Below, one piece after another: positions 38,840 to 52,983 of a stretch of 64,000 bases of DNA. Source of the stretch: Halegenticoccus soli (GTDB taxonomy: Archaea > Halobacteriota > Halobacteria > Halobacteriales > Haloferacaceae). The stretch's first letter is position 1. Every line of letters begins with the position of its first letter. A program made the position numbers and the translations under genes. The notes beneath the pieces were generated by a model, which saw only the letters and a program-made list of their open reading frames with translations, did not search any database and was not told where the DNA came from. The stretch spans positions 248,001 to 312,000 of the forward strand of contig NZ_PEND01000004.1 in the NCBI RefSeq assembly GCF_002844195.1, written 5' to 3'.

Positions 38840-39370
38840 TCAACGAGAATTTTCGAACTCCTCTCTCAGTAGCCCGAATACGAACGCATCGACGTATTCT
38901 CCGTTAACGTAGTAGTGACTGCGCAATCGGCCTTCTCGCTGAAAGCCGACTTTTTCCAACACGCGCATTGATGCCTTATTCTGTTCAAACACCCGAGCCA
39001 TAAGTTTGTGAAGCCGCCTATCGTCGAAGCCGTACTCGACCGCGAGTTGTAGCGCCTCGGTCGCGTAGCCGCTTCCGCGATGCTCTTCACAGATCCAGTA
39101 GCCGATCTCCCCATAGCCGGAAACGTCGTCGATTTGTGGGAACCAGATGAACCCTACTGGTTCGCCGTTCCGACACGGGATGAAATGTGCTCTCGGATCA
39201 TCGTTTTCCGCTATATACGAGGCGATTTGCCCGTCGGACAGCGGTTTACGCCGATTCGTCATCCGTCGGTTGGAGGGTCGATTCCAATGGTTCCGGATGA
39301 ACTCGTAGTCCTCGGGTTCAACCGTCCATAGCGCGAGGCGGTCACCCGCTAGGAAAACAGACCCTGGCAT
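38840..39370 (-). CDS. GNAT acetyltransferase, RimJ/RimL type
   Basis: 176 residues. Motif A is EIGYWICEEHRGSGYATEALQLAVEYGFDD, motif B is FEQNKASMRVLEKVGFQREGRLR, both standard for the RimJ/RimL group. It probably acetylates an N-terminal amine, amino acid or antibiotic. The ATG at 39370 begins MPGSVFLAGDRLALWTVEPED, the usual start. A second GNAT gene lies just upstream on the same strand. The moderate G+C content fits an acquired region. Confidence 0.88.
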   Translation of the reverse strand: MPGSVFLAGDRLALWTVEPEDYEFIRNHWNRPSNRRMTNRRKPLSDGQIASYIAENDDPRAHFIPCRNGEPVGFIWFPQIDDVSGYGEIGYWICEEHRGSGYATEALQLAVEYGFDDRRLHKLMARVFEQNKASMRVLEKVGFQREGRLRSHYYVNGEYVDAFVFGLLREEFENSR

Positions 39371-49502: not shown

Positions 49503-49682
49503 ATGAACCTGTTTAGAAAGCTCGGCCGTCAGGTCGAGCAGTTCAAAACGAAAGCGAAGGCTGCGAGCCGGGACCGCGCGAGCTATCGGTGCACAGAGTG
49601 CGGCGCGCGCTTCAGCGAGCAGCGCGAGCGGTGTCCCGAGTGCGGGTCCGGCGACGTCGTCTCGGTCACACAGCAGGAATAA
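49503..49682 (+). CDS. 59-residue zinc-ribbon protein
   Basis: A short gene: MNLFRKLGRQVEQFKTKAKA, then YRCTECGARFSEQRERCPECGSGD, split here as CTEC and CPEC. The first thirty residues are a basic amphipathic helix and the rest a FmdB-like zinc ribbon. It may bind nucleic acid or membranes. A role is unknown. The start is directly at the end of a short AT-rich patch. Confidence 0.75.
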   Translation: MNLFRKLGRQVEQFKTKAKAASRDRASYRCTECGARFSEQRERCPECGSGDVVSVTQQE

Positions 49683-49940
49683 TCGCCGACCGCTGAAAAC
49701 CGGTGCACCGCTTTCGACTCCCGTGCGGTCGTTCCAGTACTGACAGCTGGAAGCGGGTACGATGAGCCCGCGGTTAGCGATCGGATCGGGGTTCGGATCG
49801 CACTCGCGTCGCGAAACGGCACCGCACTCGGCGCGTTCGCGGCCACAAATTCCCTGAGCGCCCCTCCCGAGAAGATAACGGAAGTATCGGAAACCGCCCG
49901 GTCTCGGTTATGGCGGTCGGTCCGCCTACATTCGACCGTG

Positions 49941-50621
49941 ATGTATCAGAAGTCCAGCGCGCAACCGGTCCTCCCGACGCTCGAAGACGGGATGACGCTG
50001 CTCCGGGCGGACCGCGGAGCGACCGGCGCGCTCCACTCGCTCGTTCTCGACCACCTCCTCCTGGAGGGCGGGGACGCCGCCTGGGTCGACGCCAACGGCA
50101 ACGGAACGACGCAGCGACTCTGCCGACTCGCGCCGAACGCGCGAATACTCGACCGCGTCCGCATCGCCCGGGGCTTCACCCCCTGGCAGCACTACGGCAT
50201 CCTCGCCGACCTCCCGGAGCAGGTCACGGACGGGACGTCGCTCGTCGTTTTGCCGGCGTTCGACTGGTTCTACCGGGCGAGCGACCTGCGACGCGGCGAG
50301 GGTGAGCGGATGCTCTCCGAGGCGGTCGAGCGAATCGCGCGGCTGCTCGACGAGGTCGCCGTTCCGGTCCTCGTCACGCTATCGGAAACGGACGGACTCG
50401 CGCGGCCCGTCGTCGACGCCGCGTCGGAGACCCTGGAGTGCGAACTGACCGAGTACGGGCCGCGGTTCTCGGGGGAGTCGTTCGAGACCCTCGTGTACCC
50501 CGCCGGGGACGGCGCGGTTCAGACGACGATCTCCTACTGGAACCGCGTTCTCGCCGCGCGCCACCCGACCCCCGCTTCCGCAGGCCGGTCGCCGGAGGTG
50601 ATCCCCATTGGGACGAACTAA
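49941..50621 (+). CDS. RecA-fold-like protein without P-loop, partner of PolB2
   Basis: 226 residues. The layout resembles RecA/RadA-type ATPases: a helix and strand GALHSLVLDHLLLEGGDAAWVDANGNGT (parts only), a Walker-B-like strand TSLVVLPAFDWFYR and later strands VPVLVTLSETDG and VQTTISYWN. The usual GxxxxGKT is replaced by DANGNGTTQ, so ATP binding is doubtful. A GTG at 49938 is an alternative start; CGGTTATGG (about 49905-49913) is a TATA-like element. It starts a three-gene operon with a small helical protein and polB2, which suggests a role as scaffold or loader for the polymerase. Confidence 0.78.
   Translation: MYQKSSAQPVLPTLEDGMTLLRADRGATGALHSLVLDHLLLEGGDAAWVDANGNGTTQRLCRLAPNARILDRVRIARGFTPWQHYGILADLPEQVTDGTSLVVLPAFDWFYRASDLRRGEGERMLSEAVERIARLLDEVAVPVLVTLSETDGLARPVVDAASETLECELTEYGPRFSGESFETLVYPAGDGAVQTTISYWNRVLAARHPTPASAGRSPEVIPIGTN
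50594..50601 (+). promoter_or_regulatory. Perfect Shine-Dalgarno before a TTG start
   Basis: GGAGGTGA, fully complementary to the archaeal 16S 3' end, six bases before TTG at 50608. It lies inside the end of the upstream gene and decides the start of the next one. Confidence 0.8.
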
Positions 50622-50868
50622 TCCGACGTACCGGGACGCGGTTCGAGCGACGGAGGACCGGTGGGCGGACTACCGACGGGCGCTCAGGCGTCGGGATCGA
50701 CCGCACTTCGACCGCCTCTTCGAACACGCCCGCGCGCACGCCGACGCCGGCGGGTATCTCAATCACCAGTTCGCCGAGATTCTGATTCTCGTCTCCGTCG
50801 CGCTCGAACAGGAACGGCGGATCGCGTCGCTGGAAGAACGGCTCGAAGCCCGCGGAGACGGGGAGTGA
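50608..50868 (+). CDS. Small helical protein of the PolB2 operon (TTG start)
   Basis: 86 residues, almost all helix: RDAVRATEDRWADYRRALRR, then FEHARAHADAGGYLNHQF and ILILVSVALEQERRIASLEERLEA, with a coiled-coil-like end. It begins at TTG, chosen because a perfect GGAGGTGA precedes it, and it overlaps the previous gene by 14 bases. It ends three bases before the polB2 start codon. Small helical partners are usual beside archaeal PolB2 genes; it may bridge the polymerase and the RecA-like protein. Confidence 0.75.
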   Translation: MGRTNPTYRDAVRATEDRWADYRRALRRRDRPHFDRLFEHARAHADAGGYLNHQFAEILILVSVALEQERRIASLEERLEARGDGE

Positions 50869-50871
50869 CCG

Positions 50872-52983
50872 ATGCCGTTCACGTTCGACTACCTCGACGG
50901 CGACGTCCTCGAATGGTCGCTGACGGCCGACGGAGCAGAGTGCTCGCGGAATCCGTCGTACGAGCCGACGATCTACGTCTCGGCCCACGGGGGCGGCGAC
51001 CTCGCCGAAGTCTCGGAAGTACTCCGGGGACACCCGCAGGTCGCCCGCGTCCGCGTCGTCGAAGAGCGAACCGGGTTCAGACGCGACCCGGAACCGGTGC
51101 TCCGCGTCGACGTCGTCGACCTCGACGCCGTCACCGGGGTCGCGCGCGAGATCCGCGGGTGGCGCAAGCCCGGCGAGTACCGGTGTTACAACGTCGACTT
51201 CGACAGGGAGTTCAGGTACTGCCTCGAAGCGGGCGTCTCTCCGGTTCCGGCCGGCGAACTGACGGTCCTTCCGATCTCCGTTCCGGAGCCGCAGCTCGTC
51301 GGCGGCCGGGTCACGACGGTCGAGCTCGGGGGCGAGACGGTGGACGGAACGCGGGAGGACGTCCTCGAAGCGGTCGCCGGCCGCCTCGACGACGACGATC
51401 CGGACGTGCTGCTGTTGAACGCGAGCGAGATCGTCCCGACGCTGTACGAGCAGGCCGAACGGCTCGGCGACCGGGAGTTCCGGCTGGGACGACTTCCGGG
51501 GTGGCAGCAACTCGCCGGGGAGTCGACGTACGCGAACGACGGTCGCGTCGGGCACTCGCCGGCGCGGTACAACCTCCCGGGGCGGGCGATCGTGGACCGC
51601 TCGAACACGTGCATGTGGAACCGGACGAACCTCGACGGTTGTCTCTACCTCGTCGAACGGTCGGGCAAGCCGCTACAGGAGGTAGCCCGGTCGTCCATCG
51701 GAAACGTCCTCACGGCGATACAGATCCGGGAGGCTCGAAGGCGAGGCGTGCTGGTGCCGTGGAACTCGTGGCGACACGAACGGTTCAAGACGATGCGCCA
51801 GCTGCGCGAGGCCGATCGAGGCGGGTTCACGTTCGCGCCGAAGGTCGGCCTCCACGAGGAGGTTCACGAACTCGACTTCGCCTCGCTGTACCCGACCATC
51901 ATCGTCACGCGGAACGTGAGCCCCGAGCGGATCCGCTGCGAGTGCCACGCCGACCGCGAGGACGTCCCCGGAGTCGGGTACAGCATCTGCGACGAGCCGG
52001 GCTACCTCCCCGACGTGCTCGAGCCGCTCATCGAGGACCGCGATCGGATCAAAGCCGAGTTGGCCGAGACGGACGATCCAGAGCGCGGGAAGGCGCTGGA
52101 GGGGCGGTCGAACGCCATCAAGTGGATTCTCGTCTCCTGCTTCGGGTACCAGGGCTTTTCGAACGCGAAGTTCGGACGCATCGAGTGCCACGAGGCGATC
52201 AACGCCTTCGCCCGGGAGATTCTGCTCCGTGCGAAGGAGGCGTTCGAGGCGAACGGGTGGGAGATCGTCCACGGCATCGTCGACAGCGTCTGGGTTCGGC
52301 GGATCGAAGGCGAAGCGCAGACGCCGCTCTGTGATCTCGCGGAACGGATCTCCCGCGAGGTCGGAATCCGCCTCGAATACGAAGCGGCGTACGACTGGAT
52401 CGCGTTCGTCCCGCTGCGCGACAGCGATGCCGGCGCGCTGACGAAGTACTTCGGGAAGGTCGCCGGCGAGGACGAGTACACGTACCGGGGGATCGAGTGC
52501 CGCCAGCGCAGCACGCCGGCGTTCGTCGAGCGGGCGCAGAAGGACCTGATCCGGGTGCTGGATGCGCACCGCGAGCCCGAGCCGGTCTGCGATCGGCTGA
52601 AGCTGTGGGTGGAGCGCCTGCGAGGGGGCACGGTCGATCCGGCGGACCTCCTCATCGACAACCGCGTCTCGAAGCGCGCCGACGAGTACTCCCGGTACAC
52701 GCGGACCGCGGCGGCGCTCGAGCGCGCCGCCGGACGGGGGCTCGATCGGAGCCCGGGCGAGAACGTCTCGTACCTGGTCGTCGACGACGAGAGGCGGTCG
52801 AGAGACCGCGTCGCGTTGGCCCACGAGGCGATCTCCGAGTACGACGTCGACTTCTACGAGACGCTGCTGCTTCGGGCGGCGACGAGCGTCCTCTCGCCGC
52901 TGGGGTGGCGACAGTCCGCGATCGAAATCGCGCTCGCGGGGTCGCGGAACTCGACGTTATCGGCCTTTCGGAACTGGGGTTGA
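50872..52983 (+). CDS. polB2: Family B DNA polymerase, PolB2 type, with altered catalytic motifs
   Basis: 703 residues, shorter than replicative PolB. Polymerase motif A is ELDFASLYPTIIV with Asp335. Motif B reads KWILVSCFGYQG from Lys417, lacking the usual Asn. Motif C reads HGIVDSVWV, so only Asp471 remains of the DTDS pair (Ile469 replaces the first Asp). No exonuclease DxE motif is seen in the N-terminal part. This is the pattern of archaeal PolB2, long thought inactive or specialised. It is last in an operon with the RecA-like and helical genes, pointing to DNA repair or damage tolerance. Confidence 0.88.
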   Translation: MPFTFDYLDGDVLEWSLTADGAECSRNPSYEPTIYVSAHGGGDLAEVSEVLRGHPQVARVRVVEERTGFRRDPEPVLRVDVVDLDAVTGVAREIRGWRKPGEYRCYNVDFDREFRYCLEAGVSPVPAGELTVLPISVPEPQLVGGRVTTVELGGETVDGTREDVLEAVAGRLDDDDPDVLLLNASEIVPTLYEQAERLGDREFRLGRLPGWQQLAGESTYANDGRVGHSPARYNLPGRAIVDRSNTCMWNRTNLDGCLYLVERSGKPLQEVARSSIGNVLTAIQIREARRRGVLVPWNSWRHERFKTMRQLREADRGGFTFAPKVGLHEEVHELDFASLYPTIIVTRNVSPERIRCECHADREDVPGVGYSICDEPGYLPDVLEPLIEDRDRIKAELAETDDPERGKALEGRSNAIKWILVSCFGYQGFSNAKFGRIECHEAINAFAREILLRAKEAFEANGWEIVHGIVDSVWVRRIEGEAQTPLCDLAERISREVGIRLEYEAAYDWIAFVPLRDSDAGALTKYFGKVAGEDEYTYRGIECRQRSTPAFVERAQKDLIRVLDAHREPEPVCDRLKLWVERLRGGTVDPADLLIDNRVSKRADEYSRYTRTAAALERAAGRGLDRSPGENVSYLVVDDERRSRDRVALAHEAISEYDVDFYETLLLRAATSVLSPLGWRQSAIEIALAGSRNSTLSAFRNWG

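Follow-up and report, generated by a model that had tools for sequence, protein, structure and literature searches.

The PolB2 operon of Halegenticoccus soli is preceded by a promoter element with a CGGAA direct repeat, and sequence comparison shows this element to be common, across haloarchaea, to iRadA operons, to PolB2 genes lying apart from iRadA and to one subfamily of orc1/cdc6 genes. As such, the operon is no novelty: its three genes make up the iRadA-PPB2-PolB2 (PolB2 mutasome) operon already described. The explanation favored here for the whole, i.e., a mutasome operon, the GGAA element and an Orc1/Cdc6 regulator of the damage response, is given a probability of about 0.63. It is proposed that these could make up a small Orc1/Cdc6-linked damage-response regulon in haloarchaea that is apparently undescribed. 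No report of the GGAA element or of an Orc-linked haloarchaeal regulon was found in the literature searched, with subscription journals and preprints outside the scope of that search.

The operon and its three products

In the window, i.e., the whole stretch of 64,000 nucleotides analyzed here, the genes of iRadA, PPB2 and PolB2 are closely packed on the plus strand (Table 1). Rereading of the reading frames gave the same order, strand, spacing and coordinates as the initial annotation, which had described a three-gene PolB2 operon. The start of iRadA was placed at the ATG at 49941, the commoner start among relatives, with an in-frame GTG at 49938, and the gene ends with the TAA at 50619-50621. 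PPB2 starts with the TTG at 50608, inside the end of iRadA, and 3 nt separate its stop from the PolB2 start. The TTG start can be regarded as fixed because the first residues of PPB2, MGRTNPTYR, are invariant or nearly so among homologues. Residues M1, G2, R3, T4, T7 and R9 were invariant in 36 homologues, which had been picked by the GRT motif, so that the invariance of MGRT among them is partly by construction. MGRT was present in 68 of 79 PPB2 matches, and several of the others start with MGRTN followed by a variant residue.

GGAGGTG is kept at the spot equivalent to that of the Shine-Dalgarno-like sequence in many relatives, including those in which PPB2 starts with TTG or GTG. The overlap between iRadA and PPB2 was exactly 14 nt in 27 of the 65 distinct haloarchaeal loci where it was measurable, and a small gap was found in 28 others. 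No bacterial-type promoter or terminator was detected in a scan of positions 49680-49960. The dN/dS values of iRadA, PPB2 and PolB2, calculated against two relatives, were 0.11-0.30; all three genes are under purifying selection and the set is more than a chance arrangement.

Table 1. Positions in the window of the PolB2 operon and its associated features
Feature	Position	Strand	Description
Promoter element CGGAA-n4-CGGAAACGAC...TTAT	49876..49919	+	Model R1, 28.6 bits, E=7e-8 in the window plus locus L271
iRadA	49941..50621	+	226-aa RadA/Rad51-fold protein without P-loop and without N-terminal oligomerisation domain
Shine-Dalgarno-like GGAGGTGA	50594..50601	+	Inside the iRadA 3' end, serves the PPB2 start; direct reading
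iRadA/PPB2 coding overlap, 14 nt	50608..50621	+	iRadA TAA within the PPB2 Thr4-Asn5 codons
PPB2 (arCOG07300-like)	50608..50868	+	86 aa, TTG start, N-terminus MGRTNPTYR
PolB2	50872..52983	+	703-aa B-family DNA polymerase, divergent active site (D335, V421, I469, D471), conserved D242-R243

Upstream of the polymerase, a RecA-fold-like protein lacking a P-loop and an 86-residue helical protein had been claimed, and both descriptions were borne out. The profile of the iRadA family (35 proteins) matched RadA/Rad51 structures with a best E=3e-10, and the AlphaFold2 (AF2) model of iRadA (pLDDT 84) had RadA as its best PDB match (E=1.7e-11, TM ~0.6). The Walker A motif [AG]xxxxGK[ST] was absent from the iRadA of the window and from 70 of 71 homologues. 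As a RadA/Rad51-like protein with an inactivated ATPase and no N-terminal domain, iRadA has the hallmarks of its family; no PCNA-binding (PIP) motif was found in its last 40 residues. PPB2 is the expected small helical protein with an N-terminal MGRT, and its AF2 model was all helical with a pLDDT of 91. A Foldseek search of the PPB2 monomer against the PDB returned no significant match, which fits the published view that PPB2 is stable only as a trimer.

PolB2 matched NF004418 (NCBIfam) with 1043 bits and PF00136 with E=9e-23. Its motif A is DFASLYP, with D335 present, its motif B is KWILVSCFGY, in which V421 replaces the usual Asn, and its motif C is HGIVDS, in which I469 replaces the first Asp and D471 is present. 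This reading of the motifs agrees with the initial annotation, which had reported the two aspartates as kept and the other motif C aspartate and the motif B asparagine as lost. Both the NF004418 score and the HGIVDS sequence place the protein in the PolB2 group, i.e., B-family polymerases with an altered first Asp of DxD. Of 102 haloarchaeal PolB2s, 101 had HGIVDS as motif C and one had HGIIDS, the first Asp being absent in 102 of 102, and motif B was without Asn in all 101 sequences of this survey in which it was readable. The altered motifs B and C are a family trait and not a lesion of the H. soli copy. The D(K/R) motif in the loop before the palm, a mark of membership in the mutasome operon, is present as D242-R243; D242 was invariant in an alignment of 17 PolB2 sequences, and the residue following it varies, with E common in one clade. 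The C-terminus of PolB2 (...LSAF...) is a weak LxxF only and is not claimed as a PIP motif.

The GGAA-repeat element and its distribution

The element was found through comparison of iRadA upstream regions among relatives. Its general layout consists of two CGGAA about 9 nt apart, then (A/G)CGAC.C and then a TATA-like box, and the same layout was found in 34 iRadA promoters, where 49-53 nt usually separate the second GGAA from the ATG. In the window, CGGAA is repeated at 49879-49883 and 49888-49892 and followed by CCGCCC, and the TATA-like TTAT lies at 49908-49911, 30-33 nt upstream of the iRadA ATG. The GGAA repeats start some 20-30 nt ahead of this box, past the usual BRE. For R1, a sequence-only model, the training set was confined to 34 iRadA upstream regions, including the site of the window. 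The training regions were chosen for two GGAA repeats, so that GGAA is conserved by construction; this does not apply to CGAC.C, the TATA-like box and the spacing.

In the 4.6-Mb genome that contains the window, R1 scored highest at an orc1/cdc6 promoter on contig C9 (30.3 bits) and second highest at that of the present operon (28.6 bits). A search of 40 genomes at E<=0.01 gave 39 matches, comprising 15 iRadA operons, 9 orc genes of the same subfamily, 5 split PolB2 genes and 10 others. When 195 genomes of the order were searched at E<=1e-3, a match was obtained in 87, and the 25 best new loci were located before iRadA (19), orc (4), PolB2 (1) and a gene of unknown kind (1). The R1 matches track intact PolB2, being present in 17 of the 23 genomes with it vs. 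2 of the 17 without it (counts made by hand; Fisher p=1.2e-4). A position-matrix scan of 80 named loci yielded 104 matches, whereas twenty column-permuted matrices yielded 1.25 on average. Seventy-seven non-training matches of the matrix reached >=15 bits; 62 were assigned to iRadA, PolB2 or orc, and the other 15 include 3 orc genes, at least 1 PolB2, 4 PPB2 paralogues without MGRT and 2 stand-alone RNase H-like exonucleases.

The element also precedes polB2 of Halobacterium NRC-1 (VNG_RS11805, on pNRC200). On pNG600 of Haloarcula marismortui, the separate units of iRadA (RR_RS02230), PolB2 (RR_RS02215) and orc (RR_RS02255) each have it, and in Haloprofundus salinisoli it is found before both the orc and the iRadA gene. 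Two further candidates were rejected. A second R1 match in the window (39272-39298, minus strand) lies, by reading of the open reading frame, inside the coding sequence of a probable acetyltransferase and was taken as chance, and a site with one mismatch before mutS (C2:470151) was unsupported by the full model.

Some PolB2 operons are without the GGAA element (e.g., locus L110). In three divergent PolB2 operons (L025, L026, and L048), a motif like the UV motif of Halobacterium radA1, TTTCACTTTCA (PMC2556686), is found in its place, in keeping with a general control of PolB2 by damage. No copy of the radA1 UV motif was seen ahead of the operon of the window, and the count of this motif in the genome of the window was hardly above or below that of a reversed-pattern control, owing to a tandem array.

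An Orc1/Cdc6 paralogue as candidate regulator

The element-bearing orc1/cdc6 gene of the H. soli genome is located on contig C9 and not on that of the operon. It encodes 337 aa and matches TIGR02928 with 190.8 bits, above the cut-off, and it is set apart from the other orc paralogues, the next one being 30% identical. In several relatives, the orc gene is directly upstream of iRadA, and each of the two genes has its own copy of the element. Among about 43 orc genes at the same loci that fall outside the C9-type subfamily, none had the element in the usual layout. A few of them have, nearer to the gene, a GGAACGTCGGAAACGTGGGG site that resembles an origin box (ORB). An Orc1/Cdc6 gene and damage-tolerance genes are accordingly found here with one common promoter element.

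In Sulfolobus, Orc1-2 is a regulator of the damage response and binds its own promoter and those of damage genes at ANTTTC (PMC9738581), and polB2 neighborhoods are enriched in orc1/cdc6 genes (PMC11791011). Because of this precedent, these neighborhoods and the element common to both kinds of gene, the haloarchaeal orc is a candidate regulator of the mutasome. In the simplest mechanism, the paralogue would be a transcription regulator that responds to damage and binds to the GGAA repeats via its winged helix, and it would control its own gene and the mutasome genes jointly, taking the role of Sulfolobus Orc1-2 at another site. We infer both the binding of Orc to the element and the induction of the genes by DNA damage. 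The narrower proposal that a dedicated, autoregulated Orc1/Cdc6 paralogue binds the GGAA-repeat element before the PolB2 mutasome genes, forming a compact haloarchaeal damage regulon, is given even odds. The ANTTTC hexamer of the Sulfolobus element (DDRE) is absent from the element of the window, and the closest solved relative of the Orc protein is Sulfolobus Cdc6 homologue 1 (2qby_A), which was counted against an Orc1-2-like reading. In passages from two UV microarray reports on Halobacterium NRC-1 (one of them PMC2556686), radA1 and other genes are named and polB2 is not.

It could be argued that this is an ordinary published PolB2 operon and that the upstream conservation is an inherited core promoter (BRE and TATA). 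In haloarchaea, a TATA-like box some 30 nt ahead of the start codon is the norm, and the iRadA promoters owe part of their similarity to inheritance. However, a model trained on iRadA promoters also finds those of unlinked orc genes, split PolB2 genes, PPB2 paralogues and exonucleases, there are no more than a few sites in each genome of 3-5 Mb, the GGAA repeats lie beyond the usual BRE and the column-permuted matrices find almost nothing, all of which makes a mere core promoter highly improbable. A different damage regulator acting at the element, with the Orc1/Cdc6 paralogue as just another of its targets, would also account for the shared sites, since these show co-regulation and not the identity of the binder. 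Such a regulator is also favored by the location of orc, which can lie away from the operon (in the genome of the window, the two are on different contigs), and by the related sites at PPB2 paralogues and at the RNase H-like exonuclease. It is nevertheless rather unlikely, as Orc1-2, a DNA-binding AAA+/winged-helix protein, is known to regulate its own gene (PMC9738581) and no other DNA-binding protein recurs among the matches, save one small zinc-finger protein, seen in a pair of related genomes.

Doubt may also be raised about the polymerase, which could be a catalytically dead structural or regulatory subunit and not a translesion polymerase, given that one catalytic Asp and the motif B Asn are gone, as was argued in earlier comparative work (PMC4104785). 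Against this stands Dpo2 of S. islandicus, which has the same kind of substitution (401-IID-403), yet is active (PMC11791011, PMC8764526) and is required for targeted mutagenesis (PMC8764526, PMC7390963, PMC11791011); loss of the motif C Asp alone is therefore not equivalent to inactivity. Moreover, D335, D471 and K417 are invariant in the alignment of haloarchaeal PolB2s. A dead PolB2 is considered improbable on these grounds, and the mutasome operon under the GGAA element and an Orc1/Cdc6 regulator is retained as the preferred explanation.

Comparison with known systems

An earlier prediction of the operon had it as PolB2 with an inactivated RadA and arCOG07300 (Makarova 2014; PMC4104785), and polB2 of H. 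volcanii (HVO_A0065) is near a radA-like gene (PMC7776575). The names iRadA and PPB2, the MGRT hallmark and the parallel with Pol V are from Timinskas 2025 (PMC11791011), who modeled an AlphaFold heteropentamer of PolB2, iRadA and three PPB2 for other species. In the published model, a PPB2 trimer would bridge PolB2 and iRadA through the MGRT arm, iRadA, an ATPase-dead Rad51-like subunit, would dock on PolB2, and PolB2 would extend mismatched or damaged primer ends. The sequence hallmarks of the H. soli proteins match this model, and a complex of this kind would be expected to form there. Like the PolB2 mutasome and the Dpo2 operon of S. islandicus, the present operon has the same families in the same order, the MGRT arm, an inactive Rad51-like subunit and a motif C without its first Asp. 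It is unlike the mutasome of the published papers in that PPB2 starts with TTG within a 14-nt overlap and in that the promoter has the GGAA-repeat element, which is unmentioned there.

The initial annotation had suggested a mutasome-like complex mirroring the bacterial ImuA-ImuB-DnaE2 set, with no mention of the promoter element or of a link to Orc1/Cdc6. The first part holds, as a specialized B-family polymerase, an inactive RecA/Rad51-fold protein and a small helical adaptor correspond to the published model (PMC11791011); the kinship with ImuA-ImuB-DnaE2 had to be given up, since no homologue of ImuB or DnaE2 is present. The only meaningful Pfam/NCBIfam matches were to DNA_pol_B/PolB2 and, weakly, to Rad51/RadB. 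What is left is a likeness of style, i.e., a RecA-like protein, an adaptor and a specialized polymerase in one operon, whereas DnaE2 is a C-family polymerase and ImuB is Y-like, and neither is homologous to PolB2 or PPB2. Similarly, Pol V of E. coli (UmuC-UmuD'2-RecA) combines a polymerase with a small oligomeric partner and a RecA-fold subunit, but its polymerase belongs to the Y-family, its RecA is active and its accessory protein is not homologous.

As for the control of the operon, the UV motif of Halobacterium radA1 likewise consists of a direct repeat and lies some 50 nt ahead of the starts of damage genes, but its sequence differs from that of the GGAA element. For euryarchaeal PolB2, neighborhoods rich in orc1/cdc6 are known, but no site or regulon was found in the literature searched. 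Because the element is defined, has target genes of three classes and is found also on replicons of laboratory strains (pNRC200 and pNG600), the nature of the switch for error-prone damage tolerance in halophilic archaea becomes directly testable. The Orc1-2 regulon of Sulfolobus is similar in that a gene of the Orc1/Cdc6 family and damage-tolerance genes are under one promoter element; it differs in that the haloarchaeal element is a CGGAA repeat in another phylum, where binding and induction are predicted. If the proposed regulon is real, then together with Sulfolobus Orc1-2 a regulator derived from a replication initiator would be an equivalent of LexA in archaea of different phyla, acting at recognition sites that differ between them.

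Genes adjoining the GGAA element and PPB2

Various genes other than those of the operon were found at or beside the GGAA element. A gene for a 159-aa zinc-finger protein, orthologous in two genomes of the genus, is also preceded by the element, and on Haloarcula marismortui pNG600 the orc gene bearing it is adjoined by a gene for an SRAP/SOS-response-associated peptidase. In three Haladaptatus loci, the element is followed by a PPB2 paralogue without the MGRT arm and then directly by PolB2, with no iRadA.

In three loci (L011, L015, and L271), an IS200/IS605-type transposase gene lies directly upstream of PolB2, at the expected place of PPB2; its identity comes from the annotation in L271 and from reading of the protein in L011 and L015. 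PolB2 of L271 retains its own GGAA element. In several loci, PPB2 is overlapped or followed by a stand-alone RNase H-like exonuclease-type gene, or this gene has its own GGAA-type site. Its protein (weak PF13482 match) carries, in order, the motifs DIET...NGERFRSGFDLPFL...HNIAD, and might do the work of the proofreading domain that has decayed in PolB2. The gene was looked for in the window's genome and not found.

Remnants and possible remnants in the window's genome

PolB2 also occurs in the window's genome as three degraded fragments, of which two contain in-frame stops; remnants of this kind are common among haloarchaea. Two GGAA elements on contig C5, about 350 nt apart and with no obvious intact gene behind either, may be what is left of an operon copy that has been lost.

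Locations of the features (G000, window's genome; G001, the other genome; C, contig; L, locus; bits, R1 model score)
Feature	Location	Strand	Remark
GGAA element before zinc-finger gene	G000:C3:486667-486709	-	
GGAA element before zinc-finger gene	G001:C7:299344-299385		
SRAP/SOS-response-associated peptidase gene	L272:11238-11927		H. marismortui pNG600
PPB2 paralogue without MGRT arm	L033:3556-3996		Haladaptatus
PPB2 paralogue without MGRT arm	L035:3652-3996		Haladaptatus
PPB2 paralogue without MGRT arm	L045:3610-3996		Haladaptatus
IS200/IS605-type transposase	L271:6505-7845		annotated as such
RNase H-like exonuclease-type gene	L042:289-1044	-	
RNase H-like exonuclease-type gene	L084:122-883	-	
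RNase H-like exonuclease-type gene	L059:1916-2641		
RNase H-like exonuclease-type gene	L067:1926-2639		
RNase H-like exonuclease-type gene	L093:2881-3729		
Degraded PolB2 fragment	G000:C3:315999-316976		
Degraded PolB2 fragment	G000:C3:341756-342052		
Degraded PolB2 fragment	G000:C3:451794-451982		
GGAA element without obvious intact gene	G000:C5:464472-464507	-	25.4 bits
GGAA element without obvious intact gene	G000:C5:464819-464860	-	19.7 bits

Repeats before divergent operons and known UV motifs

TTTCA-n-TTTCA repeats occur upstream of iRadA in the divergent PolB2 operons L025, L026, and L048. The repeats resemble the UV motif of Halobacterium radA1, within which ACTTTC matches the ANTTTC element of Sulfolobus.
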